Shown here in pieces: positions 44,248 through 61,333 of a stretch of DNA of 64,000 nt. The notes under the pieces were generated by a model. That model was given only the letters and a program-made list of their open reading frames with translations. It did not search any database and was not told where the DNA came from. Source of the DNA: Streptomyces sp. NBC_01267 (GTDB taxonomy: Bacteria > Actinomycetota > Actinomycetes > Streptomycetales > Streptomycetaceae); NCBI RefSeq assembly GCF_036241575.1, contig NZ_CP108455.1, positions 5,211,501-5,275,500 of the forward strand, given 5' to 3'. The position numbers and the translations under genes were made by a program. The first letter of the stretch is position 1; every line of letters starts with the position of its first letter.

Positions 44248-45252
44248 ATGCCGGAAGCACTGTTGGACACCGGACCGGCCGAGGAGGCGGGGGCCGTCGC
44301 TGCGGCCCCCGCCGCCGGGGACCGGTCGTTCCGACGGCGGATGCGCGGACAGCGCGCCGCCGTCGCGGCGGCGTGCGTCGTCGCCCTGCTCGTGCTGGTC
44401 GCCGTCGGCGCGCCGCTGCTCACCGCGCTGGAGGGCCAGGACCCCAACGCGTACCACCCCGGTCTCATCGATTCCGCGCGCGGCGGAGTACCCGTCGGCC
44501 CCCTCGGCGGGATCAGCGCGGACCACTGGCTCGGCATCGAACCGCAGACCGGCCGCGATCTCTTCGCCCGGCTGGTCTACGGGGCGCGGGTCTCCCTGGC
44601 CGTGGCGTTCGCCGCGACCCTGGTGCAGGTCGGACTCGGCGTCGTCCTCGGTGTCGCGGCCGGGCTCGGCAGCAGGCTCGTCGACAACGTCCTGAGCCGG
44701 ATCACCGACGTGGTCGTGGCCATGCCGCTGATGATCCTCTCGCTGGCACTGATGGCGATCGTGCCCGACACCTTTCCCAGGCCGGTGCTGGTCGCGCTGG
44801 TGATCGGGCTGATCGCCTGGGGCGGTACGGCGAAGATCGTCCGCGCCCGGACGCTGAGCCTCAAGTCGCTGGACCATGTGGAGGCGGCCCGGCTCAGCGG
44901 CTGGAACCAGTGGCAGATCGCCCGTCGCGAACTGCTCCCCGCGCTCGCCGCGCCCGTCATCACCTACGCCGCGCTGCTCTTCCCCGCCAACATCTCGGCG
45001 GAGGCCGCGCTGTCCTTCCTCGGCGTCGGCGTGCAGCCGCCCACCCCGTCGTGGGGGCAGATGCTCACCTCGGCCGACGTCTGGTACCAGGCCGCTCCGC
45101 AGTATCTGCTGCTGCCCGCCGGGATGCTCTTCGCCACGGTGTTCTCGCTGACCGTGCTGGGCGACGGCATACGGACCGCACTCGACCCGCGCGCCGCCTC
45201 CCGGCTGCGGATCGGCACCGGACGCAAGCGCGAGAAGAGGGCCACCGGATGA
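44248..45252 (+). CDS. Peptide ABC transporter permease (DppC/OppC type)
   Basis: A 334-residue membrane protein with an N-terminal cytoplasmic tail, a first helix AAVAAACVVALLVLVAVGAP, a large external loop (HWLGIEPQTGRDLFARLVYG, the OppC hallmark) and four to five further helices. The coupling EAA loop is EAARLSGWNQWQIARRELLP. ATG 44248 lies two bases after the previous stop. Normally the DppB-type gene comes first; here the DppC-type comes first. Confidence 0.93.
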   Translation: MPEALLDTGPAEEAGAVAAAPAAGDRSFRRRMRGQRAAVAAACVVALLVLVAVGAPLLTALEGQDPNAYHPGLIDSARGGVPVGPLGGISADHWLGIEPQTGRDLFARLVYGARVSLAVAFAATLVQVGLGVVLGVAAGLGSRLVDNVLSRITDVVVAMPLMILSLALMAIVPDTFPRPVLVALVIGLIAWGGTAKIVRARTLSLKSLDHVEAARLSGWNQWQIARRELLPALAAPVITYAALLFPANISAEAALSFLGVGVQPPTPSWGQMLTSADVWYQAAPQYLLLPAGMLFATVFSLTVLGDGIRTALDPRAASRLRIGTGRKREKRATG

Positions 45253-46250
45253 ACGGCCGCCTGACCGGCTTCCTGCTGCGGCGCCTCACAGGCGCCCTCG
45301 TCACACTCCTCGCGATCTCCGTGATCGTCTACGCGGTGTTCTACGTCGCCCCCGGTGACGTCGCCCAGATCACCTGCGGCCCCCGCTGCTCGCCCGTCCA
45401 AGTGCACCAGGTGAGCGAGCAGTTGAGGCTCGGCGACCCGGTGTACGTGCAGTACGGGCACTTCCTCCAGGGCGTCTTCGCCGGCCGGGACTTCTCCACC
45501 GGCACCTCGGTGCTGCACTGCGACGCGCCGTGCCTGGGCCTCTCGTACCGCACCGACCAGCAGGTCACCGACCTGATCCGCACCGAACTGCCGGTCACCG
45601 CCTCGCTCACGCTCGGTGCCATGGTGATGTGGCTGATCCTCGGCGTCGGCACGGGCGTGCTCTCGGCCTGGCGGCGCGGGCGGCCCACCGAGCGGCTGCT
45701 CACCGGGATCACCCTGGCCGGTACCGCGACGCCCGTCTTCGTCATCGGCCTGGTGCTGATGGTCGTGGTCTGCGGGACGCTGGGCCTGCTGCCGTATCCG
45801 CAGTACGTACCGTTCTCCGACGACCCGCAGCAGTGGGCGTGGAACCTGCTGCTGCCGTGGCTCTCGCTCGCCCTGATCGAGTCCGCCAAGTACGCCCGGC
45901 TGACCAGGGCCGCCATGCTGGAGACGCTCGCCGACGACCACGTACGGACCTTCCGTGCCTACGGGGTGAGCGAGCGCCGGATCATCGGACGGCACGCGCT
46001 GCGCGGGGCGTTCGCGCCGGTCATCGCGCTCAACGCCAACGACTTCGGGTCGATGTTCGGCGGCGCCGTGCTCACCGAGTCGCTGTTCGGCATCCCCGGC
46101 ATCGGACGTGAACTCGTCCACGCCGTCCGGGTCGTGGACCTGCCGGTGGTGGTCGGCATGGTGCTCGTCACCGGCTTCTTCGTGGTGCTCGCCAATGCCG
46201 TCGCGGACGTGCTGTACGCGATGGCCGACCGACGGGTGGTCCTGTCATGA
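45249..46250 (+). CDS. Peptide ABC transporter permease (DppB/OppB type)
   Basis: A 333-residue membrane protein opening with FLLRRLTGALVTLLAISVIV and the DppB-type external region (YAVFYVAPGDVAQ, RLGDPVYVQYGHFLQGVFAG). The cytoplasmic coupling loop is TFRAYGVSERRIIGRHALRG, followed by GGAVLTESLFGIPGIGRELV. The first external loop contains four Cys (ITCGPRCSP and LHCDAPCLG), unusual for the family, and likely two disulfides. ATG 45249 overlaps the previous stop (ATGA). Confidence 0.93.
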   Translation: MNGRLTGFLLRRLTGALVTLLAISVIVYAVFYVAPGDVAQITCGPRCSPVQVHQVSEQLRLGDPVYVQYGHFLQGVFAGRDFSTGTSVLHCDAPCLGLSYRTDQQVTDLIRTELPVTASLTLGAMVMWLILGVGTGVLSAWRRGRPTERLLTGITLAGTATPVFVIGLVLMVVVCGTLGLLPYPQYVPFSDDPQQWAWNLLLPWLSLALIESAKYARLTRAAMLETLADDHVRTFRAYGVSERRIIGRHALRGAFAPVIALNANDFGSMFGGAVLTESLFGIPGIGRELVHAVRVVDLPVVVGMVLVTGFFVVLANAVADVLYAMADRRVVLS

Positions 46251-47842
46251 GTCTGATCGAGGTCGAGGACCTCACGATCACCTTCGACGGGGCCGTACGG
46301 GCCGTCGACCGGTTGTCGTTCACGCTGGAGCCGGGCGGCGCGCTCGGCGTCGTCGGCGAGTCGGGCTCCGGCAAGAGCGCGTCCGCGTACGCGCTGCTCG
46401 GACTGCACCGGGGGAGCGGCGCGCAGGTCAGCGGCTCGGTACGGGTGGCGGGGACCGATGTGCGGACCGCTTCCGAGGCCGAACTGCGGGAGCTGCGCGG
46501 CGGGAAGGCCGCGATGGTCTTCCAGGACCCGCTGTCCTCGCTGGACCCGTACCACGCGATCGGCGACCAGATCGCCGAGGTGTACCGGACCCATGTGAAG
46601 ACCTCCCGCCGGGCCGCGCGCACCCGGGCCGTCGAGGTGCTCGACCGGGTCGGTATCCCGGACGCCGCCCGGCGGGCCCGCTCGCGACCGCACGAGTTCA
46701 GCGGCGGGATGCGGCAGCGCGCACTCATCGCGATGGCACTGGCCTGCGAGCCGCAGCTGCTGATCGCCGACGAGCCGACGACCGCGCTGGACGTCACCGT
46801 CCAGGCGCAGATCCTGGATCTGCTGCACGACCTGCGGCGCGAGACGGGAACGGGACTGCTGCTGGTCACCCATGACGTGGGGGTGGCGGCGGAGTCGGTG
46901 GACGACGTACTGGTGATGCGGGCCGGGCGGGCCGTGGAGCGCGGGAGTGTGGCGGAGGTGCTCGGATCGCCGCGCGAGCCGTACACCAAGGCGCTGCTCG
47001 CGGCGGTGCCCCGGGTCGACGATCCGCCGCGACGGGTGGTCGCGGGCCGGAGGCCGGTTCCCGGCTCCGCGGGCGCCCCGGTGGTCGAAGCCGTCGGTCT
47101 GCGCCAGGTCTTCGGCCGCGGCAGGGCCGCGCTCGCCGCCGTCGACGGCGTCACCCTGAGCGTGCACCCGGGCGAAACCCTCGGTGTCGTCGGCGAGAGC
47201 GGCAGCGGCAAGACCACCCTGGGGCGGATGCTCGTCGGGCTGCTGGAGCCCACGTCCGGCCGGGTGACCCGGACCGGCCGGGTGCAGATGGTCTTCCAGG
47301 ACCCCGTCTCCTCGCTCAACCCGCGCCGCTCCGTCGGCGAGTCCGTCGCCGACCCGCTGCGGGCCCGCGGCGAGCGGGACGGGGCCGCGATCCGGGCCCG
47401 GGTGCGGGACCTGCTGGAGCGGGTCGGTCTCGACCCCGCGCAGTACGACCGCTATCCGCACGAGTTCAGCGGCGGCCAGCGCCAGCGCGTCGGGATCGCG
47501 CGGGCGCTCGCCGCCGAGCCGGAACTGATCGTCTGCGACGAGGCGGTGTCCGCGCTCGATGTGACGACGCAGGCCCAGGTCACCGCCCTGCTGGCGGAAC
47601 TGCAGGAGGAGCTGGGGCTCGCGCTGGTCTTCATCGCGCACGACCTCGCGGTCGTACGGCAGGTCAGTGACCGGGTGGCCGTGATGCGGCAGGGCCGGAT
47701 CGTCGAGGAGGGCGAGGTGGAGTCCGTGTACGGCGCCCCGCAGGACCCGTACACCCGGCAGCTGCTGGCCGCGGTGCCCGCGCTCGATCCGCTGCTCGCG
47801 GCGGTGCGCCGGGCGGCCAGGAAGGAGCCCGCCGCGGCCTGA
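46247..47842 (+). CDS. Fused double ATPase of a peptide ABC transporter (DppD-DppF)
   Basis: A 531-residue protein carrying two complete ATPase domains. The first has GESGSGKSASAYALL (Walker A near residue 40), EFSGGMRQRALIAMAL and LIADEPTTALD. The second has GESGSGKTTLGRMLVGLLEP (near residue 320), HEFSGGQRQRVGIARALAAE and IVCDEAVSALD. They are normally separate DppD and DppF subunits. The first domain keeps the oligopeptide-type end REPYTKALLAAVPR and the second DPYTRQLLAAVPALD. ATG 46247 overlaps the permease stop. It completes the importer, since no separate ATPase gene is needed. Confidence 0.93.
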   Translation: MSLIEVEDLTITFDGAVRAVDRLSFTLEPGGALGVVGESGSGKSASAYALLGLHRGSGAQVSGSVRVAGTDVRTASEAELRELRGGKAAMVFQDPLSSLDPYHAIGDQIAEVYRTHVKTSRRAARTRAVEVLDRVGIPDAARRARSRPHEFSGGMRQRALIAMALACEPQLLIADEPTTALDVTVQAQILDLLHDLRRETGTGLLLVTHDVGVAAESVDDVLVMRAGRAVERGSVAEVLGSPREPYTKALLAAVPRVDDPPRRVVAGRRPVPGSAGAPVVEAVGLRQVFGRGRAALAAVDGVTLSVHPGETLGVVGESGSGKTTLGRMLVGLLEPTSGRVTRTGRVQMVFQDPVSSLNPRRSVGESVADPLRARGERDGAAIRARVRDLLERVGLDPAQYDRYPHEFSGGQRQRVGIARALAAEPELIVCDEAVSALDVTTQAQVTALLAELQEELGLALVFIAHDLAVVRQVSDRVAVMRQGRIVEEGEVESVYGAPQDPYTRQLLAAVPALDPLLAAVRRAARKEPAAA

Positions 47843-48026: not shown

Positions 48027-49706
48027 GTGCACGTGCGGATAGGACTGCTTACGGAAGGTGGGTATCCGTATGCGACGGGTGAGTCGAGGTTCTGGTGCGA
48101 CCGGCTCGTACGAGGGCTGGACGGGCACGAGTTCGACCTCTACGCGCTGAGCCGCAGCGCGCAGCAGGAGGCGGGCGGACGGCTCGAACTGCCGCCGCAG
48201 GTACGGCGGGTGCGCACCGCGCCGCTCTGGAAGGCCGAGGCGGACGGCCGCAGGTACGGCCGAAGAGACCGGCGCCGGTTCGCCGACTGCTTCCGGCAGC
48301 TGGTCTCGGCCGTGTGCGGCGAGGGCACCGGCCTCGCGGACGGCCTCTTCGCGGACGGCCTCTACGGACTGGCCGAGCTCGCGGTCGAGAAGGGTCCTCT
48401 GTACCCGGCGCTCCGCTCCGAAACCGCCGTCCGCGCCCTGGAATCCGCCTGTCGTGCGCCCGGCGCGAGCCGCACGGTGCAGTCCGCGAGAGTCCCCGAC
48501 TACCTCACCTTCGCCGGACTGCTGGAGCGGGCCCTGCGTCCGCTCTCCCTCGACTGGTACACCGAGGACGAGCTCGGGGCGGTCGACCTCTGCCATGCCG
48601 CGTCCGGCGGCGGCGCCGCGCTCCCCGGACTGCTGGCCCTCCGCTTCTTCGGGGTTCCCCTGCTGGTCACGGAGTACGGCGTCGAACTGCGCTCGCACTA
48701 CCTGGCGGGCAGCACCCGCAGCGCCCCGGTCCGCGCGCTGCTCGCGGGCTTCCACGGCAGGCTGGCCGCCGAGGTCTACCGCCGGGCCGCGGTCATCACC
48801 CACGGCAACGCGCACGCCCGCCGCTGGCAGGAGAAGTGCGGCGCCGACCGCGCCAAACTGCGCACGGTCCATCCCGGCATGGAGGCCGAACGATTCTCCG
48901 CCGTGGGGGACGGCGGGGAAACGGGCGACCCGGCCACCCTGGTGTGGGTCGGCCGTATCGAGCCCGCCAAGGACCTGATCTCCCTGCTGCACGCCTTCGC
49001 CGAGGTGCGCAAGGAGGAGCCGGAGGCCGGACTCCGCATCGTCGGAGCTCCCGCGCCGGGGCCCGGGGGCGCGGACCACCTCGCCCACTGCCGCGCCCTC
49101 GCCGCCCAGCTCTTCCCCGACGAGGCGGCGGACGTGCACGCGGTCGGTTCCAACCCGGTGACCTTCGAGGAGATCGGCGGCCCGGAGGTGCCGGAGCTCG
49201 CGGACGCCTACGCGGGCGGCGCGGTCGTGGTGCTCTCCAGCGTGGTGGAGGGCTTCCCGGTGAGCCTCGTCGAAGCGATGTTCTGCGGCCGGGCGACGGT
49301 CTCCACGGATGTCGGCGCGGTCGTCGAAGTCGTCGGCGGCACGGGGCTCGTGGTGCCACCGCGCAATCCGCGTGCGCTCGCCGACGCCTGCCTGGCGCTG
49401 CTGCGCGACCCGCGGCGCCGGGAACGGCTCGGTGCGGCGGCGCGTGCGCGGGCGCTCGAACTCTTCACGGTCGAACAGAACATCGCGGCATTTCACGGCA
49501 TTTACCTCGACCTGCTCTCGCACGGCCCGGTCCGGCGTACGCCGGCGCACGACAAGGGTGATCCCCGCCCGTTCGCGCACCCGGCGGAGGCGCAGGTCGC
49601 GGGAGCCTGGGCGGCTCACGCGGGCACGGTGCGTACGCCGAGTTGGGCGGCGCCGGAGCCCGAACCGCTCCGGGTGGGGGCTGTCGCGGGGGAGGGCGGC
49701 CGATGA
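48027..49706 (+). CDS. PelF-like GT4 glycosyltransferase with DUF3492 domain
   Basis: A 559-residue cytosolic enzyme. The opening RIGLLTEGGYPYATGESRFW resembles the PelF/DUF3492 start. The middle has CHAASGGGAALPGLLALRFF and LVTEYGVELRSHYLAGSTRS; the C-terminal GT-B half has VWVGRIEPAKDLISLLHAFA and the retaining EX7E motif EGFPVSLVEAMFCGRATVST. PelF of Pseudomonas polymerises the GalNAc/GlcNAc-type Pel polymer using UDP-sugars; a related polymerase role is inferred here. GTG 48027 has GGGAG 10 bases upstream. It heads a run of five closely linked genes ending with a spherulin-4 protein. Confidence 0.88.
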   Translation: MHVRIGLLTEGGYPYATGESRFWCDRLVRGLDGHEFDLYALSRSAQQEAGGRLELPPQVRRVRTAPLWKAEADGRRYGRRDRRRFADCFRQLVSAVCGEGTGLADGLFADGLYGLAELAVEKGPLYPALRSETAVRALESACRAPGASRTVQSARVPDYLTFAGLLERALRPLSLDWYTEDELGAVDLCHAASGGGAALPGLLALRFFGVPLLVTEYGVELRSHYLAGSTRSAPVRALLAGFHGRLAAEVYRRAAVITHGNAHARRWQEKCGADRAKLRTVHPGMEAERFSAVGDGGETGDPATLVWVGRIEPAKDLISLLHAFAEVRKEEPEAGLRIVGAPAPGPGGADHLAHCRALAAQLFPDEAADVHAVGSNPVTFEEIGGPEVPELADAYAGGAVVVLSSVVEGFPVSLVEAMFCGRATVSTDVGAVVEVVGGTGLVVPPRNPRALADACLALLRDPRRRERLGAAARARALELFTVEQNIAAFHGIYLDLLSHGPVRRTPAHDKGDPRPFAHPAEAQVAGAWAAHAGTVRTPSWAAPEPEPLRVGAVAGEGGR

Positions 49707-50011
49707 ACCAGCCCCGCACGGTCCCCATAGCGGCTCCGGCTCTCGGAACGGCGGTCCGTGAAGCCGCTGCCTTCGAGGCGACGGCTTGCGAACTCCCGCT
49801 GGTCCGGGGCGCGTCGACCGGAGGCGTACGCCGGAGCAGATCGGCCGCCGTGCGCCGGGTGTCCGGCCGCGCGCACCCGACGGCCCGATCGGGGTGTACG
49901 GCACGCGGGCCCAGGCCCCCGGCGCACGGCTGTGCGCCCCCGCCGTCCGCCGTCGAACTCCCCGTCCACCGGCCCCGGTTCCGACTCCGGCGCAGAGAGG
50001 TCGCCGTATGA
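49703..50011 (+). CDS. Possible 102-residue protein bracketed by ATGA overlaps
   Basis: The ATG overlaps the glycosyltransferase stop and the TGA overlaps the start of the next gene, both as ATGA, which favours translation. Against this, about 20 percent of third positions are A or T (normal genes here have far fewer). The sequence is Arg/Pro-rich without a domain (MNQPRTVPIAAPALGTAVRE at the start, RPRFRLRRREVAV at the end). It may be a coupling ORF that lets ribosomes reach the next gene. No similarity recognised. Confidence 0.45.
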   Translation: MNQPRTVPIAAPALGTAVREAAAFEATACELPLVRGASTGGVRRSRSAAVRRVSGRAHPTARSGCTARGPRPPAHGCAPPPSAVELPVHRPRFRLRRREVAV

Positions 50012-51186
50012 GCAGGCCCGGTCCCACCGAACAGCCGCCAGGACCCGCCCCGGACGGTCCGCGCCCGCCCGCGGGGGCCGACGCCTGGGACGAGCGTTCC
50101 GAAGCCGTGCTCGCCGAGGCCGCGTCCGGACTCGCGGCCCCGCCCTTACGGAAGGGCGCGCGAGGCTCCGCCGACCCCGTACGGGCCCTGATGCACCGCC
50201 ACCGCGAGCTGTGCGAACGGGCCGTCGACCCGCTGGAGATCGCCGCCGGACTCGAAGCGCACGGCATCACCGACCGCACCGCGGCCCGGTTCCGGCACCG
50301 GGACGTCTTCGCGCTCGCCGACGAGCTGTACGCCCGCGTACCCCGCAGCGCGGAAGCCGGGCACCCGGTGGACGAACCCGCCGCTGCCCATGAAGTCGCC
50401 CCGCACGCACCCTTGTTCGGGCTGCTGCCCGGCGGTTGCGCGGTCGCCACGGCCGTCGGGATCCCGCTGGTCCACGGCGGTGGACGGCTCGCGGTCGCCG
50501 CCGCGGGCGCGCTCGTCACCGGCGCAGCCCTCCTCCTCACCCTGCGCCGGGGCCCGTTGCGGGCCGAGGGGCGTGCGGTGCCCGGCGCGCGCGGTTACGT
50601 CTGCTGGCTGCTCGGCTACGCGCTCTGCGGCGACGGCCTGCTGGACCAGTTGCTGCGCGGCGGCCCCGACGGGACCTGGCCACTGGCCGCCGCACCGCTG
50701 GCCGCCGCACCGCTGGTCGGCCTGGCGCTGGCCGTGGCGCCCGCCGTCTGGTGTGCCCGGCTCCTCTCGCTGCTGGCCCGGCGCGGACTGGCCGCGAGCC
50801 GGGGCACGGCCGAATTCGCGGCGCGGGCCAGACCGCTCGTCGTCGCCGTCGCCGTGCTGTACGCGGCGGCGCCCGCGCTCCTGCTGTCCGTCCGGGGATT
50901 CACCCCCGGAGCCGCCGCCCTCGCCGTTCTGCTCTTCCTCGCCAGGCTGCTCACCGTCCACGGCTTCCCCGGCGGCGCGGCCACCGCCCTGGGGGCCGCC
51001 TGCACCGTCGAGGCCCTCGCCCTGGCATCGGTCCTCGCGGGCCGGCTCCCCGGCTGCCGCTTCCTCGCCGTTCCCGTGGACGCCCTGGGTGTGCCCGCCG
51101 TGTCCGCCCTCGCCTGCGGGGCCGCCGCCCTCGCGCTGCTGGTGCACGCCACCGGCGCGCTCTCCCGCGCCTCGGCGCACACCTAG
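50008..51186 (+). CDS. Polytopic membrane protein of the polysaccharide locus
   Basis: A 392-residue protein. Residues 1-125 are cytoplasmic and charged (VRALMHRHRELCERAVDPLE, FRHRDVFALADELYARVPRS). The rest is hydrophobic with about nine to ten helices, such as GRLAVAAAGALVTGAALLLT and LVGLALAVAPAVWCARLLSL. I cannot recognise a family. PelG, the MATE-like partner of PelF, is also polytopic, but I see no PelG motif. The ATG overlaps the preceding frame. A transport or membrane-anchoring role for the glycosyltransferase is inferred from context only. Confidence 0.8.
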   Translation: MSRPGPTEQPPGPAPDGPRPPAGADAWDERSEAVLAEAASGLAAPPLRKGARGSADPVRALMHRHRELCERAVDPLEIAAGLEAHGITDRTAARFRHRDVFALADELYARVPRSAEAGHPVDEPAAAHEVAPHAPLFGLLPGGCAVATAVGIPLVHGGGRLAVAAAGALVTGAALLLTLRRGPLRAEGRAVPGARGYVCWLLGYALCGDGLLDQLLRGGPDGTWPLAAAPLAAAPLVGLALAVAPAVWCARLLSLLARRGLAASRGTAEFAARARPLVVAVAVLYAAAPALLLSVRGFTPGAAALAVLLFLARLLTVHGFPGGAATALGAACTVEALALASVLAGRLPGCRFLAVPVDALGVPAVSALACGAAALALLVHATGALSRASAHT

Positions 51187-51262
51187 CGCGCGCCCCGAGA
51201 CCTCCCGCGGAGCCGACGTCGCGGGCCATTCACCCCGTAACACCCCTGAAGGAGAACGCAAC

Positions 51263-51319
51263 ATGAGCCCCGAACCCACAGCCCCGGCATGTCGGTATCG
51301 AGAGGTGGCCGCGCGATGA
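51263..51319 (+). CDS. 18-residue leader ORF coupled to the epimerase gene
   Basis: ATG 51263 has a strong GAAGGAG eight bases upstream and encodes MSPEPTAPACRYREVAAR. Its TGA overlaps the epimerase ATG as ATGA. It is too short for domain assignment. The strong ribosome site and exact overlap suggest it is translated and couples the downstream gene. It may be a coupling device rather than a functional peptide. Confidence 0.5.
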   Translation: MSPEPTAPACRYREVAAR

Positions 51320-52278
51320 GGGTGCTGCTGCTCGGAGCCAACGGGTACCTCGGCCGCTACGTGGCCGACCGCCTGCTCGCCGACCCCGCCGTGCATCTCA
51401 CGGCCCTCGGACGCGGCGACGACGCCGACGTCCGCTTCGACCTCGCCAGTGGCAGCCCGGGAGCCCTGACCCGCTTCCTGGACGCCGTCCACCCCGGAGT
51501 CGTCATCAACTGCGCCGGAGCCACCCGCGGCGGCGCACGCGATCTGACCCGGCACAACACGGTCGCCGTCGCCACCGTCTGCGAGGCACTGCGCCGCAGC
51601 AGTTGCAGCGCCCGGCTGGTGCAGCTGGGCTGCGGGGCCGAGTACGGGCCCAGCCAGCCGGGCTCGTCCACCGCCGAGGACGCGGTGCCGCGCCCCGGTG
51701 GCCCGTACGGCGTCTCCAAGCTCGCGGCCAGTGAACTGGTGCTCAACTCGGGGCTGGACGCGATCGTCCTGCGGGTCTTCTCGCCGGTCGGTCCCGGCAC
51801 CCCGGCGGGCTCCCCGCTCGGCCGCCTCGCCGAGGCGATGCGCCGGGCGATGCAGGCGGGGGACAACGAGCTGAAGCTCTCCGGGCTCGGCGTCCAGCGC
51901 GACTTCGTCGACGTACGGGACGTGGCGCGCGCCGTCCACGCCGCCTCCCTCTCCGCCGCCCAGGGGGTCGTCAACATCGGTACGGGGCACGCCGTGAAGC
52001 TGCGCGAGGCCGCCGCCGTGCTGGCCAGGGTCGCCGGTTTCGGCGGCACCCTGCACGAACTCGACGGCCCCCAGCACCGGCACGGCGGCCTGGTCGCCCC
52101 GCGCCCCGCCGAGCCGGTCATGGAGCACCTGGCCGCCCCGTCCCCGTACCCCGACGGCTGCGGCAGCTGGCAGCAGGCGGACGTCCGCACCGCCCGCGAC
52201 CGGCTGGGCTGGCGTCCGCGCATCAATCTGGAGGAGTCGCTCGCCGACATCTGGATGGAGGCCGCATGCCGTATCTGA
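51316..52278 (+). CDS. NAD-dependent sugar epimerase/dehydratase
   Basis: A 320-residue extended short-chain dehydrogenase: MRVLLLGANGYLGRYVADRL (GxxGxxG nucleotide loop), VINCAGATRGGARDLTRHNT, active-site YxxxK in GGPYGVSKLAASELVLNSG and DFVDVRDVARAVHAASL. It resembles UDP-hexose 4-epimerases and dTDP-sugar dehydratases, and could supply UDP-GalNAc or UDP-Gal for the PelF-like enzyme (inference). ATG 51316 has GAGAGG eight bases upstream. The stop lies 13 bases inside the spherulin-like gene. Confidence 0.9.
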   Translation: MRVLLLGANGYLGRYVADRLLADPAVHLTALGRGDDADVRFDLASGSPGALTRFLDAVHPGVVINCAGATRGGARDLTRHNTVAVATVCEALRRSSCSARLVQLGCGAEYGPSQPGSSTAEDAVPRPGGPYGVSKLAASELVLNSGLDAIVLRVFSPVGPGTPAGSPLGRLAEAMRRAMQAGDNELKLSGLGVQRDFVDVRDVARAVHAASLSAAQGVVNIGTGHAVKLREAAAVLARVAGFGGTLHELDGPQHRHGGLVAPRPAEPVMEHLAAPSPYPDGCGSWQQADVRTARDRLGWRPRINLEESLADIWMEAACRI

Positions 52279-53024
52279 CCCCCGCCGCGGCGGTCTCGAC
52301 CGGGCTGGGCTTCGGCATTCCCGGCTACGCGCACCCGCTGGTCGCCCCGGTCGAATGGGCCGAACTCACCCGCCCGGGAACCCCGTTGCACTGGGTCGTG
52401 CTCAACGTCGCGCACGGCCCCGGCGCCCGTCCCGACCCGCACTGCCTGGCGGCGGCCGGACGGCTCCGCAACGCCGGGACCCGGGTGCTCGGCCATCTCG
52501 ACATGGCCCACGGGGCGCGGGGCTTCGGCGAACTGCTCGCGGAGGCACACCGGTTCACCGACTGGTACCGGGTCGACGGCTTCTACCTCGACCGGGCCCC
52601 CGTCGACCGCGCCGACCTCCCGGAGACCCGCCGCATCACCGGTGCGCTCGGAGCCCTGCTGGAACCCGGCGGCCATCTGGTGCTCGGCCACGGCAGCCAC
52701 CCGTACCCGGGCTACGCCGAGGCCGCCGACCAGTTGGTCACCTTCAGCGGCCCCTGGACCGACTACCGCTGGTCGCAGGTGGCGGAGTGGACAGCCTCCT
52801 ACGAACCATCACGTTTCGCTCATTTCGTACACGGCGTACCGCGCACGCACCTGGAGGAGGCCGTCCGTATCGCCCGCTGGCAGGGTGCGGGCACGATCTT
52901 CTTCACCGACCGCAGCGACCGGGACGGCTGCGACGGCCTGCCGGGGCAGAGCGACCCGTTCGAGACGCTGCCCGGGTACTGGGACGAAATCGTCTCGCGG
53001 ATCGGACCGGGTGTCTCGGAATGA
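52266..53024 (+). CDS. Spherulation-specific family 4 (spherulin-4, GH135-like) protein
   Basis: A 252-residue TIM-barrel-type protein. The pattern GFGIPGYAHPLVAPVEWAEL, WVVLNVAHGPGARPDPHCLA, VLGHLDMAHGARG, DWYRVDGFYLDRAPV and LVLGHGSHPYPGYAEAADQL fits spherulin-4, whose fungal member Sph3 (GH135) cleaves galactosaminogalactan. The Asp in FYLDR is at the conserved catalytic-acid position. The usual NPG and terminal FE motifs read GHG and FS here, so activity may be altered. There is no signal peptide, unlike most secreted hydrolases, so a cytosolic or unconventional role is possible. It overlaps the epimerase gene and is followed by moeZ. Confidence 0.85.
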   Translation: MPYLTPAAAVSTGLGFGIPGYAHPLVAPVEWAELTRPGTPLHWVVLNVAHGPGARPDPHCLAAAGRLRNAGTRVLGHLDMAHGARGFGELLAEAHRFTDWYRVDGFYLDRAPVDRADLPETRRITGALGALLEPGGHLVLGHGSHPYPGYAEAADQLVTFSGPWTDYRWSQVAEWTASYEPSRFAHFVHGVPRTHLEEAVRIARWQGAGTIFFTDRSDRDGCDGLPGQSDPFETLPGYWDEIVSRIGPGVSE

Positions 53025-53087: not shown

Positions 53088-54266
53088 GTGTCGTTGCCAC
53101 CCCTGGTCGAGCCAGCTGCTGAACTCACCGTCGACGAGGTCCGCAGGTACTCCCGCCACCTGATCATCCCCGACGTCGGGATGGACGGGCAGAAGCGGCT
53201 GAAGAACGCCAAGGTGCTCGCCGTGGGCGCGGGCGGCCTCGGTTCGCCCGCCCTCATGTACCTGGCCGCGGCCGGCGTGGGCACGCTGGGCATCGTGGAG
53301 TTCGACGAGGTCGACGAGTCGAATCTGCAGCGCCAGATCATTCACAGCCAGGCCGACATCGGCCGCTCCAAGGCCCAGTCCGCGAAGGACTCGGTCCTGG
53401 GGATCAACCCGCTGGTGAACGTGGTCCTTCACGAAGAGCGGCTCGAGGCCGAGAACGTGATGGAGATCTTCTCCCAGTACGACCTGATCGTGGACGGCAC
53501 GGACAACTTCGCCACCCGCTACCTGGTCAACGACGCGTGCGTGCTGCTCAACAAGCCGTACGTCTGGGGCTCGATCTACCGCTTCGACGGCCAGGCGTCC
53601 GTCTTCTGGTCGGAGCACGGCCCCTGCTACCGGTGCCTCTACCCGGAGCCCCCGCCCCCCGGCATGGTCCCGTCCTGCGCCGAGGGCGGCGTGCTCGGTG
53701 TGCTCTGCGCGTCGATCGGTTCCATCCAGGTCAACGAGGCCATCAAGCTGCTCGCGGGCATCGGTGAGCCGCTGGTCGGCCGCCTCATGATCTACGACGC
53801 CCTGGAGATGCAGTACCGCCAGGTCAAGGTCCGCAAGGACCCCGACTGCGCGGTCTGCGGCGAGAACCCCACCGTCACCGAACTCATCGACTACGAGGCC
53901 TTCTGCGGCGTCGTGTCCGAGGAGGCCCAGGAGGCGGCGGCCGGTTCGACGATCACTCCCAAGCAGCTCAAGGAGTGGATCGACGCCGACGAGAAGATCG
54001 AGATCATCGACGTCCGCGAGCCGAACGAGTACGAGATCGTCTCGATCCCGGGCGCGAAGTTGATCCCGAAGAACGAGTTCATCATGGGGACCGCGCTGTC
54101 GGACCTCCCGCAGGACAAGAAGATCGTCCTGCACTGCAAGACGGGCGTCCGCTCGGCGGAGGTCCTGGCCGTCCTGAAGTCCGCGGGCTTCGCCGACGCG
54201 GTCCACGTGGGCGGCGGCGTGATCGGCTGGGTCAACCAGATCGAGCCCGAGAAGCCGGTGTACTAG
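53088..54266 (+). CDS. moeZ: Adenylyltransferase/sulfurtransferase MoeZ
   Basis: A 392-residue fusion. The ThiF/E1-like domain has VGAGGLGSPALMYLAAAGVG, LGIVEFDEVDESNLQRQIIH and VDGTDNFATRYLVNDACV, with zinc cysteines in CYRCLYP and CAVCGENP. The C-terminal rhodanese domain (about 285-392) has IIDVREPNEYEIVSIPGAKL and the active loop VLHCKTGVRSAEV. It adenylates and thiocarboxylates ubiquitin-like carriers for molybdopterin, thiamin-type and other sulfur-transfer pathways. GTG 53088 starts 63 bases after the spherulin gene. Its mycobacterial counterpart is Rv3206c. Confidence 0.95.
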   Translation: MSLPPLVEPAAELTVDEVRRYSRHLIIPDVGMDGQKRLKNAKVLAVGAGGLGSPALMYLAAAGVGTLGIVEFDEVDESNLQRQIIHSQADIGRSKAQSAKDSVLGINPLVNVVLHEERLEAENVMEIFSQYDLIVDGTDNFATRYLVNDACVLLNKPYVWGSIYRFDGQASVFWSEHGPCYRCLYPEPPPPGMVPSCAEGGVLGVLCASIGSIQVNEAIKLLAGIGEPLVGRLMIYDALEMQYRQVKVRKDPDCAVCGENPTVTELIDYEAFCGVVSEEAQEAAAGSTITPKQLKEWIDADEKIEIIDVREPNEYEIVSIPGAKLIPKNEFIMGTALSDLPQDKKIVLHCKTGVRSAEVLAVLKSAGFADAVHVGGGVIGWVNQIEPEKPVY

Positions 54267-54395: not shown

Positions 54396-57197
54396 CTACA
54401 ACTCGCCTCGATGGGTCAGGTAGTTGAAGCACAGCCAGCCCGGCAGCACCGGCAGCCAGAAGGTCAGCAGCCGGAAGAGCAGCACCGCCGCGGTCGCCGT
54501 CCCGCGGTCCACCCCGGCGATGATCAGTGCGCCGGTCAGCGCGGTCTCCACCGCGCCGACACCACCGGGGGTCGGCACCGCCGAACCCACCGCGTTGGCG
54601 GTCAGGAAGACCACCGCGATGCTCGCGTAGCTTATGGTCGCGCCGCCGCCGAAGGCCCGCAGTGAAGCGTCCAGGCACATCACGAACGTGCCGGTCAGCA
54701 GCAGCATCCCGCCGATGCCGGTGAGCAGCTTCCGGGGCTGCTGGAGTACGTCGAGCATGCGCGGCACCACACCGGCGAACAGCGAACGCACCCGTGTGAC
54801 GACGAACTTCCGCAGGAACGGCACCGCCGTGACCACCAGGACGAGCACGGCGGCCGTCAGCAGCCCGGCGATCACGGTCCGGGACGGGGTCAGCGAAGGG
54901 GTCTGCTCGGTACCCGTCACATAGCCGAAGATCATCAGCAGCAGGATGTGGCTGCCGAGCCCGAACAGCTGCGAGGCCCCGACACTGGCCACCGCGAGAC
55001 CGGGCCGCACGCCCGCGCGTTGCAGGAAGCGGGTGTTGAGCGCCACACCGCCGACCGCCGCCGGCGCCACCAGTTTCACGAAGGACCCGGCGACCTGCGC
55101 CAGGACCGCCCGGAAGAACGGCACCTTCTCGGGGACGAATCCCGTCAGGCTCATCGCGGCAGCCACGTAACTCACCGCGGAGAACAGCACGGCGGCGGCG
55201 ACCCAGCCCCACTCGGTGTTGCTGAGCAGGTTGTGGTACGGGATGTTCGCCAGCTGCGAGAACAGGAAGTACGCGGCGATCGACCCGGCGATGACGGTGA
55301 GCAGGGTGCGCAGTTTGACCCGTTCCAGCCGGACCGGTTCGGCGTGCGCCTGCGGACGGATCAGCAGCACCTGATGGCGCATCTGCGCGAGCAGATCCTC
55401 CTCGCGCGCCCCGCCCACCGCGTCGTCTATGGCCTCCTTCTCGGCCTTCTTCTCGGCACGGGCGGCCTTGCGGCTGTCGTCCGGCGCCTCGTTGGCCCTG
55501 GCCCTGGCGCGCTTCGCCGCCTCCGACGCCTCGATCACCGCCTCGCGCTCCCGCTGCGCCCGCTCCCGCGCCAGCTGGCGCAGCGTCGCGCGGGAGGACC
55601 GACTCAGCGCCAGCGGCTGGAGCAGCGGGAGACTGTCGGCGACCTTGTCCGGGCCGAGGACCGCGACCGCCGCCGCGACCGAGCGCTCCGCCCCGGCCCG
55701 CAGCCCCAGCGTGGTGAGCAGCTGGGCGATGTCCATGCGCAGCACGATGTCACCGGCCGCGATCTCACCGCCGCGCAGATCGGTGACGATCACCGCGCCC
55801 GCCCGGTCCACCAGGATCGCGTCGCCGACGAGCCGGCGGTGCGCGATACGGCGGGACTGGAGCGCCTGCACCTGGTGCCAGGTGTTCCGCATCAGCTCGT
55901 CGGTGATCTCCTCGTCGGGAAGCGAGTCGAGGGAGCGTCCGCCGGTGTGCTCGTACACCAGCATGACCGCGTCGGGGCCCAGTTCGGAGGTGGCGATCAG
56001 CTTCGGGGCGTTGGCCCCGGCGGCGATGGCCGCGTACGCGAGGAGCGCCTCCTGCTCCAGGGCCTGGCGCAGCGACTGGATGGAGCGGCCGGTGGAGATG
56101 GAGCGCAGGGTGAGGCGGCGCCACACCCGGTAGAAGAAGCCCTGCGCCTGCTGTTCGCGGTCGACCACGGTGACGTCGAGCGGGTCCCCGTCCTTCAGGG
56201 TCACGAAGTAGCGGCGGCCCCGGTCGCCCTGGTCGGCGGAGTCGGGGATGTCCTCGGCGCGCATGGCGGTCTCGGGGGAGAAGCCGACGTGCCGCAGTCC
56301 GGCGAGGAGCTGGCGGCCGGTGGGGCGGACGTTGGGCGAGCCGACGGCGTACAGCGTGCCGTACGCCACGGTCCAGCCGAGCAGGATCGTGAGGATGATC
56401 GAGAAGGGGGTGGTCTGCCCGCCGACCAGTACGGCGAAGGCGTTGACCAGCAGGACGACCCAGAGCGCCACCCGCCAGCGCGGCCTGCGGGCCATGCCGA
56501 CCGCTGTCATGTAGGCGATGACGGGGGCGAGATAGCCGTGCACGGGGTCGGTGAGGGAGCCGTCCGACAGCGAGTGCGTCAGCGCCACGGTGATCGACTT
56601 CGGCGCGGCCTTGGCCACCCAGAGATCGGTGGCGAGCGCCACCCCGTGCGCGAGTACGGCGGCGAGCACGCCGTCCGCGATGCGCAGGCCGTCCCGCTTG
56701 ACCAGCCGCTCGATCGCGAAGGCGACCGGCAGGATCAGTATCGCGATGGACGAGAACAGGCCCGCGAGCTTGATGAGCATGTCGGGCGTCTGGCCGGTGC
56801 CGTGGTTGATGTCCTCGGCGAGACCCGATGTGGTGCCGTGCGCGAAGGCGGCGACGGCGAGGACCAGCGCGATGGCCAGCAGTCCGATGAGCAGACGCAG
56901 CAGATCGGAGGGGCGGTGCACACGGGCGGCGAGCAGTGGTTCGTCGCCGGAGACCCTGTCGATGGGTGCCGCCTCTCCGCAGTCGGTTCCTGTACCGGAC
57001 CCGGTTCCTGTGCCGGGCTCCGTTCCGGCCCCGGACGCTGCTTTCCCACCGGTCTTCCCACCGGTCTTCCCACCGGATCCCGGTTCCGTACCGGAATCCG
57101 GCCCCGTACCGGTTCCGCCGGAGGGCGGCCCGTCGGGTGCGTTTGCCGGTTCCGGCACGCCCGGCCCCTCCGTCGTGTCCTTATGGTCTCGTATCAC
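54396..57197 (-). CDS. Large membrane fusion: integral membrane, kinase-like and flippase-like (LPG-synthase TM) domains
   Basis: A 933-residue protein. Residues 1-80 are disordered with GSGTGTD-type repeats. About 90-300 carry six membrane helices. About 320-600 resemble an ABC1/RIO-type kinase lobe (DAVMLVYEHTGGRSLDSLPD, RIAHRRLVGDAILVD, VIVTDLRGGEIAAGD). The His-Asp catalytic pattern is degenerate (HRRLVGDA instead of HGDLxxxN), suggesting a pseudokinase. A coiled region (about 580-630) precedes a flippase-like LPG-synthase TM domain (about 650-933; GSFVKLVAPAAVGGVALNTR). GTG 57197 has GGTGGAG upstream. It is likely involved in envelope lipid or glycan movement; the cargo is unknown. Confidence 0.85.
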   Translation of the reverse strand: MIRDHKDTTEGPGVPEPANAPDGPPSGGTGTGPDSGTEPGSGGKTGGKTGGKAASGAGTEPGTGTGSGTGTDCGEAAPIDRVSGDEPLLAARVHRPSDLLRLLIGLLAIALVLAVAAFAHGTTSGLAEDINHGTGQTPDMLIKLAGLFSSIAILILPVAFAIERLVKRDGLRIADGVLAAVLAHGVALATDLWVAKAAPKSITVALTHSLSDGSLTDPVHGYLAPVIAYMTAVGMARRPRWRVALWVVLLVNAFAVLVGGQTTPFSIILTILLGWTVAYGTLYAVGSPNVRPTGRQLLAGLRHVGFSPETAMRAEDIPDSADQGDRGRRYFVTLKDGDPLDVTVVDREQQAQGFFYRVWRRLTLRSISTGRSIQSLRQALEQEALLAYAAIAAGANAPKLIATSELGPDAVMLVYEHTGGRSLDSLPDEEITDELMRNTWHQVQALQSRRIAHRRLVGDAILVDRAGAVIVTDLRGGEIAAGDIVLRMDIAQLLTTLGLRAGAERSVAAAVAVLGPDKVADSLPLLQPLALSRSSRATLRQLARERAQREREAVIEASEAAKRARARANEAPDDSRKAARAEKKAEKEAIDDAVGGAREEDLLAQMRHQVLLIRPQAHAEPVRLERVKLRTLLTVIAGSIAAYFLFSQLANIPYHNLLSNTEWGWVAAAVLFSAVSYVAAAMSLTGFVPEKVPFFRAVLAQVAGSFVKLVAPAAVGGVALNTRFLQRAGVRPGLAVASVGASQLFGLGSHILLLMIFGYVTGTEQTPSLTPSRTVIAGLLTAAVLVLVVTAVPFLRKFVVTRVRSLFAGVVPRMLDVLQQPRKLLTGIGGMLLLTGTFVMCLDASLRAFGGGATISYASIAVVFLTANAVGSAVPTPGGVGAVETALTGALIIAGVDRGTATAAVLLFRLLTFWLPVLPGWLCFNYLTHRGEL

Positions 57198-57394
57198 TGC
57201 GCTCCACCTCGGGGTGCTGGGCCCGCGGGCAGAGCCCGGCCGACGGTCCGGCCACCGCCCGGACGATGGTGGCATGTCCGGGCGGCGCAGGCGGGCATCA
57301 GGGCCCCTTTGCCGAAAGCGGGCCGCTCGGTGGGCGGCCCGGAGCAGTGTCGGTGCGGTGGGAGTTTTAGGAGCTGTCGGAGGGCTGGTGCAGT

Positions 57395-57751: not shown

Positions 57752-57985
57752 CAGCTTCCGCCATACGGTGGACCCGCGGGTGGTCTGAGACCCGTTCGGA
57801 GTATGCCCCGGGCCGGTGGGCCCGGCCGCTGCGGCGCCGCGCCCCACTGGCGTAGCTTCGGTGCGACACGACGGGCACCGCGGGCACCACGGCCGCGGAC
57901 ACCACTGCCACCGCAGACCCGACCGGCACAGCACCCCGTCCCCCACCCGCACACCTGCACACACTCCCCAGGACCGGCGATCCAC

Positions 57986-60900
57986 GTGAGCTCCTCCACT
58001 TCCCACCGGGTACGGCAACGTGCCCCGGGCGCGTACCGGCTGGTGCGGACCCCGCCGGGCGCAGCGGGCCCGCCTGTACTGGACGCACGGCAGCGCGCGG
58101 TGGTTGACCACGCGGCGGGGCCGCTGCTGGTCCTGGCCGGGCCCGGTACGGGAAAATCCACCACCCTCGTGGAGTCGGTGGCGCGGCGCATCGCCGAGGG
58201 GACCGACCCCGAGCGGATCCTCGTCCTCACGTTCAGCCGCAAGGCCGCGGTGGAACTCCGCGACCGGATGGCCGTGCGGATCCAGGGGGGCGCCCCCGGA
58301 GCGCACGCCCCGCAGGCAACCACCTTCCACTCGTTCTGCTACGCGCTGGTCCGCGCCCACCAGGACGCCGACCTCTTCGCCGAACCGCTGCGGCTGCTCT
58401 CCGGGCCGGAGCAGGACGTCACGGTGCGCGAGCTGCTGGCCGGACAGCTGGACCTGGGACACATCCGCTGGCCCGACGAACTGCGCGCCTGCCTGACGAC
58501 GCGCGGCTTCGCCGACGAGGTGCGCGCGGTGCTCGCCCGCAGCCGGGAACTGGGCCTGGGCCCGGACACCCTGGCCGCGTTCGCCGACCGTACGGGCCGC
58601 CCCGACTGGCGGGCGGCGGCCGACTTCCTCGCCGAGTACCTGGACGTCCTGGACGCACAGGGGGTGGTGGACTACGCGGAGCTGGTGCTCCGTGCGGTGC
58701 CGCTGGCCCAGCGCGCCGACCTCCGCTACGACGCGATCTTCGTGGACGAGTACCAGGACACCGACCCGGCCCAGGTGCGGCTGCTGCGCGCGCTGGCCGG
58801 CGGCGGGCGTTCACCAGGACCGGGCCGGCCGGTCCTGGTGGCGTTCGGTGACCCGGACCAGTCGATCTACGCGTTCCGGGGCGCCGACGTGGGCGGCATC
58901 CTGGACTTCCCCGCTACCTTTCCCCGCCACGACGGGAGCCCCGCCCCGGTCGAGGTGCTCACCACCTCACGGCGTTCCGCGGCATCCGTGCTGGCCGCCA
59001 CCCGGCTGCTGACCCAGCGGATGCCGCTGACCCGGCTGCCCTCCGACAAGGTGCGCGCGCACCGGGAACTCTCGGCGGTACGGGCCGGGGGCCGGGTCGA
59101 GGCGTACACCTACCCGACGGCGGGCACCGAGCTGGACAACATCGCCGACATCCTGCGCCGGGCCCATCTGGAGGAGGGCGTGCCGTGGAGCGACATGGCG
59201 GTGCTGGTGCGCGCGGGAGGCCGCTCGATCCCCGCGGTGCGCCGTGCGCTCACCTCGGCCGGGGTCCCGCTGGACATCGCGGGCGACGATGTCCCGCTGC
59301 GCCACGAACCTGCCGTGACACCGCTGCTCACCGCGCTGCGGGCGGTCGCGGACGCGGCGCTGGGCGGGCCGGTACGCGCCCGTCCGGACGAGGGTGACGA
59401 GAGCGCGGCCGGTCCGGACGAGGGCGATGTGAGCGCGGCCGGTCCGGACGGGGGCGCCCCCTGGCTCGGTACCGAAACCGCGCTCACCCTCCTCGCCTCC
59501 CCGCTCGGCGGCATGGACGCCGCGGACCTGCGCCGTCTCGGCCGCGCGCTGCGTGACGAGGAGCGGGCCGGCGGGAACCGGCTTCCGCCGCCCTCCGACG
59601 AGCTCCTCGCCCGCGCGCTCGCCGAACCCGAGCGGCTGGTCGTGCACGACTCGGCGTACGCCCGGGGCGCCCAGCAGCTCGGCAAGCTCCTGCGGAAGGC
59701 ACGGGAGGTCCTGGAGAACGGCGGCACCGCCGAGCAGGCCCTCTGGGAACTGTGGAACGGCACCAACTGGCCCCGGCGGCTGGAACGCGCGACGCTGCGC
59801 GGCGGCGCCGGCGGACGCAACGCCGACCGTGATCTGGACGCCGTCTGCGCCCTCTTCGACACCGCGGCCCGCGCCGAGGAACGCACCGGCGGACGCGGCG
59901 CGCTGAACTTCCTGGAGGAGCTGGACGCGCAGGACATCGCCGCCGACACCCTCTCGAAGCGGACCGTGCGGCCCGACGCCGTACGGCTCATGACCGCGCA
60001 CCGCGCCAAGGGCCTGGAGTGGGGTCTGGTCGTCGTCGCGGGCGTCCAGGAAGGGCTGTGGCCCGACCTCAGACGGCGCGGATCCCTCCTCGAAGCGGAC
60101 CGGATCGGCCGCGACGGCCTCGCCGAACCGCTCACGCCCGGCGCACTGCTCGCCGAGGAACGCAGGCTCTTCTACGTCGCGGCCACCCGCGCCCGCGACC
60201 GTCTCGTCGTCACCGCGGTCAAGGCACCGGCCGACGACGGCGACCAGCCCTCCCGCTTCCTCGCCGAGCTGGGCGTGGAGCCGAAGGACGTCACGGGGCG
60301 CCCCCGCAGACCGCTCGCCGTCGCCCCGCTCGTCGCCGAGCTCCGCGCCACGGTCGTCGATCCGAGGTCCTCGCCCGCGCTCCGGGACGCCGCGGCCCAC
60401 CGGCTCGCCCGGCTGGCCGCGCTCGCGGACGAGGAGGGCCAGCCGCTCGTACCGGCGGCGCACCCGCACCGCTGGTGGGGCCTGTACGAACCGACGCACA
60501 GCACGGTCCCGGTGCGCGACCCGGAGCAGCCCGTCGCCCTCTCCGGCAGCGCGCTCGACCAGCTCGCCCACACCTGTTCGCTCCAGTGGTTCCTGGGGCG
60601 GGAAGTGAAGGCGGACGCCCCCGCCACCGCCGCCCAGGGCTTCGGCAACGTGGTGCACGTCCTCGCGGACGAGGTCGCATCCGGGCGGACCCCGGCCGAC
60701 CTGGCCGTCCTCATGGAACGGCTCGACTCGGTCTGGGGCTCGCTCGCCTTCGACGCCCCCTGGAAGTCGGCCCAGGAGAAGGAGCACGCGCGCGTGGCGC
60801 TGGAACGCTTCCTGCGCTGGCACGTCATGGACCGCGCGGGCCGCACCCCGGCCGCCACCGAGCACGGCTTCGACGTGACCCTGGAGGCCGGTGCGTACGA

Positions 60901-61333
60901 GGTCCGGATCCGGGGCTCCATGGACCGCGTCGAGCAGGACGCCGAGGGCCGGGCGTACGTCGTCGACTTCAAGACCGGCAAGCAGGCGCCGACGAAGGAC
61001 GAGGTGGCCCACCACCCGCAGCTCGCCGTCTACCAGCTCGCGGTGCGCGAGGGCGCCGTCGACGAGGTCTTCGGCGGGCGGCGCCCCGGCCCCGGCGGCG
61101 CCGAACTCGTCCAGCTCCGGCAGGCCGCGGCCAGGAAGGAGGGCGGCGACGCCCTCCCGAAGGTCCAGGCACAGGAGCCGCTCGCGGGGGAGTGGGTCGG
61201 GGACCTGCTGGCCACCGCGGCCGGGAAGGTGCTCGACGAGCGCTTCACACCGACCACGGGAAGCCACTGCACGCACTGCTCTTTCCGGGCCTCGTGCAGC
61301 GCCCTGCCCGAGGGGCGTCACATCGTCGAGTGA
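57986..61333 (+). CDS. adnA: AdnA-type helicase-nuclease subunit
   Basis: A 1115-residue UvrD-family protein: Walker A VLAGPGTGKSTTLVESVARR near residue 50, DEYQDTDPAQVRLLRAL near 254, QSIYAFRGA, and MTAHRAKGLEWGLVVVAG near 670. The C-terminal nuclease has VVDFKTGKQAP near 992. Four cysteines fit an iron-sulfur staple: Cys863 in HTCSLQWFLG and the CTHCSFRASCSALPE trio (about 1094, 1097, 1103). With AdnB it forms the actinobacterial double-strand-break resection machine. GTG 57986 has AGGA upstream. A tandem 30-base repeat inserts a GPDEGD-rich spacer at about residues 467-490. The counterpart is Rv3202c. Confidence 0.94.
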   Translation: MSSSTSHRVRQRAPGAYRLVRTPPGAAGPPVLDARQRAVVDHAAGPLLVLAGPGTGKSTTLVESVARRIAEGTDPERILVLTFSRKAAVELRDRMAVRIQGGAPGAHAPQATTFHSFCYALVRAHQDADLFAEPLRLLSGPEQDVTVRELLAGQLDLGHIRWPDELRACLTTRGFADEVRAVLARSRELGLGPDTLAAFADRTGRPDWRAAADFLAEYLDVLDAQGVVDYAELVLRAVPLAQRADLRYDAIFVDEYQDTDPAQVRLLRALAGGGRSPGPGRPVLVAFGDPDQSIYAFRGADVGGILDFPATFPRHDGSPAPVEVLTTSRRSAASVLAATRLLTQRMPLTRLPSDKVRAHRELSAVRAGGRVEAYTYPTAGTELDNIADILRRAHLEEGVPWSDMAVLVRAGGRSIPAVRRALTSAGVPLDIAGDDVPLRHEPAVTPLLTALRAVADAALGGPVRARPDEGDESAAGPDEGDVSAAGPDGGAPWLGTETALTLLASPLGGMDAADLRRLGRALRDEERAGGNRLPPPSDELLARALAEPERLVVHDSAYARGAQQLGKLLRKAREVLENGGTAEQALWELWNGTNWPRRLERATLRGGAGGRNADRDLDAVCALFDTAARAEERTGGRGALNFLEELDAQDIAADTLSKRTVRPDAVRLMTAHRAKGLEWGLVVVAGVQEGLWPDLRRRGSLLEADRIGRDGLAEPLTPGALLAEERRLFYVAATRARDRLVVTAVKAPADDGDQPSRFLAELGVEPKDVTGRPRRPLAVAPLVAELRATVVDPRSSPALRDAAAHRLARLAALADEEGQPLVPAAHPHRWWGLYEPTHSTVPVRDPEQPVALSGSALDQLAHTCSLQWFLGREVKADAPATAAQGFGNVVHVLADEVASGRTPADLAVLMERLDSVWGSLAFDAPWKSAQEKEHARVALERFLRWHVMDRAGRTPAATEHGFDVTLEAGAYEVRIRGSMDRVEQDAEGRAYVVDFKTGKQAPTKDEVAHHPQLAVYQLAVREGAVDEVFGGRRPGPGGAELVQLRQAAARKEGGDALPKVQAQEPLAGEWVGDLLATAAGKVLDERFTPTTGSHCTHCSFRASCSALPEGRHIVE
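59383..59454 (+). repeat. 30-base in-frame tandem repeat inside adnA
   Basis: About 2.5 copies of a unit encoding GPDEGDVSAA (RPDEGDESAA, GPDEGDVSAA, GPDGG). It is an acidic insert within the helicase region, absent from conserved motifs. Confidence 0.7.

Follow-up and report, generated by a model that had tools for sequence, protein, structure and literature searches.

What does it mean that a PelF-like glycosyltransferase and a spherulin-4 protein are encoded side by side in a Streptomyces genome, and is a polysaccharide made and trimmed there? The question is raised by a four-gene locus in a 64,000-nucleotide stretch of the 8.07 Mb genome of Streptomyces sp. NBC_01267 (NZ_CP108455.1, positions 5,211,501 to 5,275,500; hereafter, the window), which encodes a GT4 glycosyltransferase (GT), a polytopic membrane protein, a short-chain dehydrogenase/reductase (SDR), and a spherulin-4 protein, and is followed by moeZ. 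The initial annotation suggested that these genes could form a minimal pathway for making and trimming an amino-sugar exopolysaccharide; the gene content itself is borne out by Pfam and NCBIfam matches and by open reading frame (ORF) calls. Comparison with relatives points to a different answer. Descent of the locus from a galactosaminogalactan (GAG)/Pel-like synthase operon, followed by decay, is well supported, and it seems rather probable that we are dealing with a vertically inherited, decayed GAG-like synthase operon that now serves as a membrane-anchored binding, scaffold or regulatory assembly.

Conservation of the gene set in Streptomycetaceae

The four genes are no chance assemblage: other genomes show them in the same order, and in Streptomyces as well as related genera they again lie next to moeZ. 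The class sample comprises 296 genomes, with Streptomyces accounting for 28; all of the latter have a match to the membrane protein, and 25 have a spherulin orthologue at the locus. The conserved co-occurrence that the initial annotation had named as support for its view is borne out. Strong GT matches outside Streptomyces were found in 4 of the 268 remaining genomes, and none of the viral contigs searched carries the GT. All 10 Streptomyces loci mapped adjoin moeZ. The SDR was detected in 192 of 200 Streptomycetaceae genomes and in 15 of 17 genera (E <= 1e-40), a count that may include a few copies from intact related operons, which we designate type B, the window's version of the locus being type A. 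Twenty loci of the family (14 genera, with Streptomyces contributing one locus and 13 other genera the remaining 19) were picked from the SDR matches and, being chosen for holding the SDR, are uninformative on its absence rate; moeZ is adjacent in all 20, the GT was detected in 17, and the spherulin in 8. Family searches can under-count such proteins, given that the PF12138 search missed the window's own spherulin, which was found with a protein query.

A spherulin without the Glu-222 equivalent

The profile of the window spherulin and its relatives matches fungal Sph3 (5c5g) with an E value of 1.2e-26. In the accessible text of one report, the putative catalytic residues of Sph3 are three, an Asp plus Glu-167 and Glu-222 (PMC10485009); in that of another, Glu222 is taken as the acid/base, and the other residue is printed as Asp196 (PMC12054363). 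At these places, the window spherulin keeps the Asp (Asp109), with Arg110 for Glu-167 and Ser161 for Glu-222. An equivalent of Glu-222 is present in none of 37 Streptomyces genomes, that is, 25 of the class sample, where Ser (17), Ala (3), Arg (4) or Gln (1) occupies the place, and 12 of the 14 genomes added on the basis of the closest SDR matches, the other two having yielded no spherulin read. The 120 nearest spherulin proteins, the best 120 of 1282 matches, carry Ser (95), Thr (12), Cys (6), Ala (4), Asn (2) or Arg (1) there, and among seven spherulins at the family loci of other genera, one has Glu (L201) and one Asp (L208). Streptomyces paralogues of the spherulin have Glu in 19 of 19 cases. 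Given the absence of the Glu-222 equivalent, trimming of a polymer by the window spherulin appears unlikely. The protein has no evident signal peptide either, the top 19-residue hydropathy within its first 60 residues being 0.95. Some type A spherulins carry the name 'phage tail protein' in public records (P0255, P0264, P0280 and others), apparently a naming error.

Different losses in the glycosyltransferase

The assignment of the GT to the PelF kind holds: besides the Pfam DUF3492 match (Table 1), it scores 95.9 bits against the NCBIfam PelF equivalog NF038011, under the curated cut-off of 100, and its type B relatives score 165.4 and 159.6 bits with the same model. The window GT retains the EX7E motif (Glu408, Glu416) along with Arg310 and Lys315; Tyr217 stands at the place of the GT4 N-domain His, the functional role of which is known from enzymes such as PimA, and GESR, from residue 18, replaces the GGVS loop (residues are counted from position 48027; the start is probably the GTG at 48033, since relatives start at MRI...). 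Across Streptomyces, the His is replaced by Tyr in 15 of the 16 genomes read, the loop is altered in all GTs with the N-terminus read, EX7E is retained in all GTs read, and Arg or Lys is altered in three (L050, L051, L052). Among the Kitasatospora-type GTs (best 120 of 372 matches), 119 have neither Glu of EX7E, and 113 keep the His. Both Glu are also gone in 7 of the 17 GT-bearing family loci, in four genera, and the first is lost in an eighth (L200). Given that Kitasatospora mostly keeps the GT His and retains the Ser of the SDR, the Streptomyces and Kitasatospora branches have lost different residues. Because EX7E is kept, the Streptomyces GT may still be capable of sugar transfer.

The SDR and the membrane protein

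The window SDR has the GxxGxxG and YxxxK motifs, with Cys106 at the place of the catalytic Ser/Thr. All 42 Streptomyces genomes read carry Cys at this place and all 12 type B loci read carry Ser; the 20 family loci are split evenly, 10 with Cys and 10 with Ser. The SDR had been proposed to supply the precursor as a UDP-hexose 4-epimerase but is not recognisable as such: it scores 32.6 bits against NCBIfam galE, with a cut-off of 262.3, and of the catalytic triad, Tyr and Lys are kept and Ser is Cys. Synthesis of UDP-N-acetylgalactosamine (UDP-GalNAc) was considered and rejected, given that type B SDRs neighbour a sugar-1-phosphate nucleotidyltransferase and a LegB-like 4,6-dehydratase. Keto-sugar reduction would fit the SDR better than UDP-GalNAc synthesis, as type B SDRs lie near the nucleotidyltransferase beside the dehydratase or, in L041, are fused to that nucleotidyltransferase.

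The window membrane protein has 8 modelled helices versus 12 in its homologue from an intact type B operon (6.8 versus 9.1 helices by hydropathy) and is about 110 residues shorter than its type B counterpart. In a structural comparison made with VIA-align, the type B homologue is predicted to have a MOP-flippase-like fold, and the window protein would then be a shortened relative of 12-helix MOP-flippase-like proteins. It differs from the MOP superfamily (MATE, MurJ, WzxE) in having 8 rather than 12 helices and an extra N-terminal helical domain. Membrane proteins of both types, A and B, have this strongly conserved domain (residues 57-110, positions 50176-50337), for which no Pfam family was found; Pfam and PDB sequence searches with the membrane protein family gave nothing significant. 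PelG (PF16933) has no match at E <= 1 in the window protein or in 14 family members. Elsewhere in the genome, a PelG search gave 0 matches; a Thermotoga maritima control matched, and the same type of search missed the window's own spherulin.

Intact relatives and known systems

Many Streptomyces carry type B loci as well. Around 19 paralogous Streptomyces spherulins, an adjacent GT occurs in 18 regions, GH114 in 8, and Agd3 homologues, by tblastn, in 8; the layout is GT-TM-dehydratase-nucleotidyltransferase-SDR-spherulin (TM, transmembrane protein) in 10 regions and Agd3-GT-TM-spherulin in 8. The Agd3 Pfam model PF25115, insensitive next to tblastn, matched in 3 of the 296 genomes. Among the best 80 of 580 named loci, from genera that include Actinomadura, Lentzea, Kineosporia, Micromonospora and Actinoplanes, 75 have Agd3, 77 the membrane protein, 67 the spherulin, 50 GH114, and 22 the SDR. 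Of this GT family, the window genome shows a single strong locus; a Streptomyces Agd3 query, run with no positive control, found no match in it, and its one GH114 match lies 2.1 Mb from the locus, with none in the operon.

Type B1 operons (L059-L062, L064-L066, L068, L069, L071, L041) encode the sugar-1-phosphate nucleotidyltransferase and LegB-like 4,6-dehydratase, and a 6-deoxy amino sugar may be part of their polymer; the best model for the L041 nucleotidyltransferase, the one fused to the SDR, is mannose-1-phosphate guanylyltransferase, under cut-off. One actinobacterial contig encodes another spherulin, longer and with the Glu intact (L042:6704-7933), together with a protein of 1012 residues (L042:8000-11038) that contains fn3 repeats and weakly matches the Agd3 CBM87.

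The intact operon is of a kind already known. Bacterial GAG-like operons that contain agd3 were reported previously, described in the accessible part of that work as having a cytoplasmic GT, a multi-spanning membrane protein and, in some Actinobacteria, spherulin-4 (Bamford et al. 2020, PMC7229062). Type B fits this description, which makes the link to GAG, suggested at the outset, an apt one: Agd3, GH114 and a MOP-flippase-like protein of 12 helices are encoded in the relatives of the operon. The combination of GT and multi-spanning membrane protein that characterizes the bacterial GAG/agd3 operons is present at the window locus as well; unlike the operons so described, this locus has no Agd3 or GH114 gene found and has lost catalytic residues. 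The Aspergillus GAG cluster (uge3, gtb3, agd3, sph3, ega3), as given in the text available (PMC4817252), likewise brings together GT, SDR and Sph3-type genes; Aspergillus Sph3 is described in the portion available as membrane-bound and active (PMC12054363), whereas the window spherulin has neither an evident signal peptide nor a Glu-222 equivalent. With the Gram-positive Pel operon pelDEADAFG, to the extent covered by the available text (PMC7112168), the locus shares a PelF-type GT, and for actinobacterial PelD an epimerase-like SDR domain whose active site is altered has likewise been reported; the differences are a membrane protein that does not score as PelG and a PelF score below the cut-off.

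Purifying selection, probable origin and proposed present role

Pairwise ratios of nonsynonymous to synonymous substitution rates (dN/dS; Nei-Gojobori, six pairs, three for the spherulin), with dS approximate owing to the codon bias of high G+C genomes, are below 1 in all pairs computed: 0.17-0.37 for the GT, three pseudo-GT pairs included, 0.006-0.28 for the SDR, 0.22-0.58 for the membrane protein, 0.19-0.68 for the spherulin, and 0.02-0.29 for moeZ. The SDR is the best preserved of the four genes; Streptomyces SDRs are 74-91% identical to that of the window, and no internal stop occurs among the matches listed. In a 60-row unrooted tree, the 26 type A GTs make up one side of a single branch, with support of 100/100. 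Type B and the wider families retain what type A has lost at these residues, so loss is the simplest direction of change, and the loss of catalytic parts from genes that most of the relatives examined have nevertheless kept hints at a new, non-enzymatic job.

The scenario that we favour would start from an actinobacterial GAG-like synthase operon with Agd3, a PelF-like GT, a MOP-flippase-like protein, an SDR, a spherulin and GH114. The Streptomycetaceae copy, beside moeZ and devoid of the deacetylase and GH114 genes, would then have lost its catalytic residues part by part, with its reading frames staying under purifying selection. The present, membrane-anchored assembly would consist of a GT-B pseudo-GT, a Rossmann-fold SDR, a TIM-barrel pseudo-hydrolase and the 8-helix membrane protein and would, most probably, bind a nucleotide sugar or glycan and scaffold or regulate envelope glycan synthesis. 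Complex formation, ligand binding and a regulatory role of the four proteins are what we infer from this pattern. More tentatively, the whole synthase operon might have turned, in Streptomycetaceae, into a conserved pseudoenzyme complex beside moeZ, composed of a dead spherulin, a PelF-like GT that is altered or dead, an SDR with Cys for Ser and a shortened flippase, and serving at the membrane to sense or regulate the precursors of envelope glycans; this bolder version seems somewhat less likely than not.

The main rival to an assembly of this kind is a Streptomyces GT that has acquired a new function and attaches a single sugar to a wall polymer, a protein or a lipid; the SDR and the spherulin would bind the substrate, and Kitasatospora would have lost the activity. 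Such an enzyme would fit the presence of EX7E in all Streptomyces read, with Arg and Lys in most, and the dN/dS of 0.20-0.26 in two Streptomyces GT pairs; the changed loop and His, and the altered Arg or Lys in three GTs, speak against it, and we regard it as an unlikely, if still serious, alternative. It is distinctly improbable that the locus is a functionless relic, slowly eroding and kept solely through its position beside moeZ: the losses are indeed stepwise, three of the 28 Streptomyces have no spherulin at the locus, none was detected at 12 of 20 family loci, the GT is undetected at 3 of these 20, and one spherulin pair has a dN/dS of 0.68, but the identity and dN/dS of the SDRs, the dN/dS of 0.17-0.37 in the pseudo-GT pairs, and the lack of internal stops in the listed SDRs speak against it. 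Least probable of all is the minimal active Pel- or GAG-like pathway of the initial annotation, in which the SDR would help to make a UDP-N-acetylhexosamine for the GT to polymerise, and the product would be exported by the membrane protein and trimmed by the spherulin, because, for all that EX7E is intact in the Streptomyces GT and that GAG-like genes and a flippase-like protein of 12 helices occur in type B relatives, the spherulin is without its acid/base Glu, the SDR has Cys for Ser, the membrane protein is some 110 residues short, with 8 helices rather than 12, the GT loop and His are changed, and same-locus GTs of sister genera have lost EX7E.

Several observations weigh against a wholly non-catalytic, integral assembly. 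The spherulin Asp persists in 17 of 25 genomes and in 113 of the 120 nearest proteins, and EX7E is kept in the Streptomyces GT, with Arg and Lys in most genomes and the His retained in one GT of the 16 read; some spherulin or GT catalysis is therefore possible. Cys sometimes substitutes for Ser in SDRs. Sixteen type B or distant spherulins examined in the same way also have no evident signal peptide, so that this feature cannot separate dead from active spherulins; it is the missing Glu that, as far as residues tell, marks the window protein as dead. Nor is the gene set indivisible, considering the three Streptomyces with no spherulin at the locus, the three family loci with no GT match, and the internal stop within the aligned stretch of the membrane protein match in G234. 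Finally, the one spherulin pair at 0.68 stands at the upper end of the dN/dS values computed.

Layout and neighbourhood of the locus

Table 1. Genes of the locus and the adjoining moeZ (window coordinates).
Feature	Position	Strand	Support or remark
DUF3492/PelF-like GT4 glycosyltransferase	48027 or 48033-49706	+	Pfam DUF3492, 101.6 bits
Membrane protein, 392 residues	50008-51186	+	N-terminal helical domain (57-110), 8 modelled transmembrane helices
Leader ORF, 18 codons	51263-51319	+	Shine-Dalgarno AAGGAG; ATGA stop/start overlap with SDR
SDR 'epimerase' family protein, NAD-dependent	51316-52278	+	Pfam Epimerase, 128.6 bits
Spherulin-4 (GH135-like) protein	52266-53024	+	PF12138, 69.5 bits
moeZ (adenylyltransferase/sulfurtransferase)	53088-54266	+	NCBIfam MoeZ, 757.7 bits (cut-off 647)

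The genes are less tightly packed than the stop/start overlaps or very short gaps originally described: 301 bp separate the GT from the membrane protein and 129 bp the latter from the SDR, and the SDR and spherulin genes, which share 13 bp, are the sole overlapping pair among the four. The spherulin gene is followed by moeZ after 63 bp; functional membership of moeZ, which adjoins the four-gene set, is putative. All 28 Streptomyces loci of the class sample, and 34 of 48 loci overall, have a leader ORF of this type before the SDR, counts made without a shuffled control; as the leader stop overlaps the SDR start, translational coupling to the SDR is probable. The leader peptides frequently terminate in GAAR.

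Upstream (44248-47842) lie dipeptide-type ABC transporter permeases and an ATPase, and an ABC transporter ATPase is likewise found upstream in loci L053 and L056; downstream are a lysylphosphatidylglycerol-synthase-type membrane protein (54396-57275, minus strand) and a UvrD helicase with a PD-(D/E)XK nuclease (57803-61333, plus strand). An Rfam scan of the window gave 0 matches, a promoter scan found no sigma-70-like site, and the terminator count was at chance level. Among the papers listed in literature searches, none on this locus was found; two of them mention the S. coelicolor locus number SCO5183 once each.

Implications

The annotation of the locus is corrected by these findings: a spherulin next to a PelF-like enzyme here does not amount to a polymer that is made and trimmed. 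Intact and catalytically decayed operons within one genus constitute a natural experiment, and because both versions occur there, the parts of a GAG/Pel-like machine that are kept without catalysis can be read off. The operon is widely conserved in the main antibiotic-producing family and is worth a knock-out.

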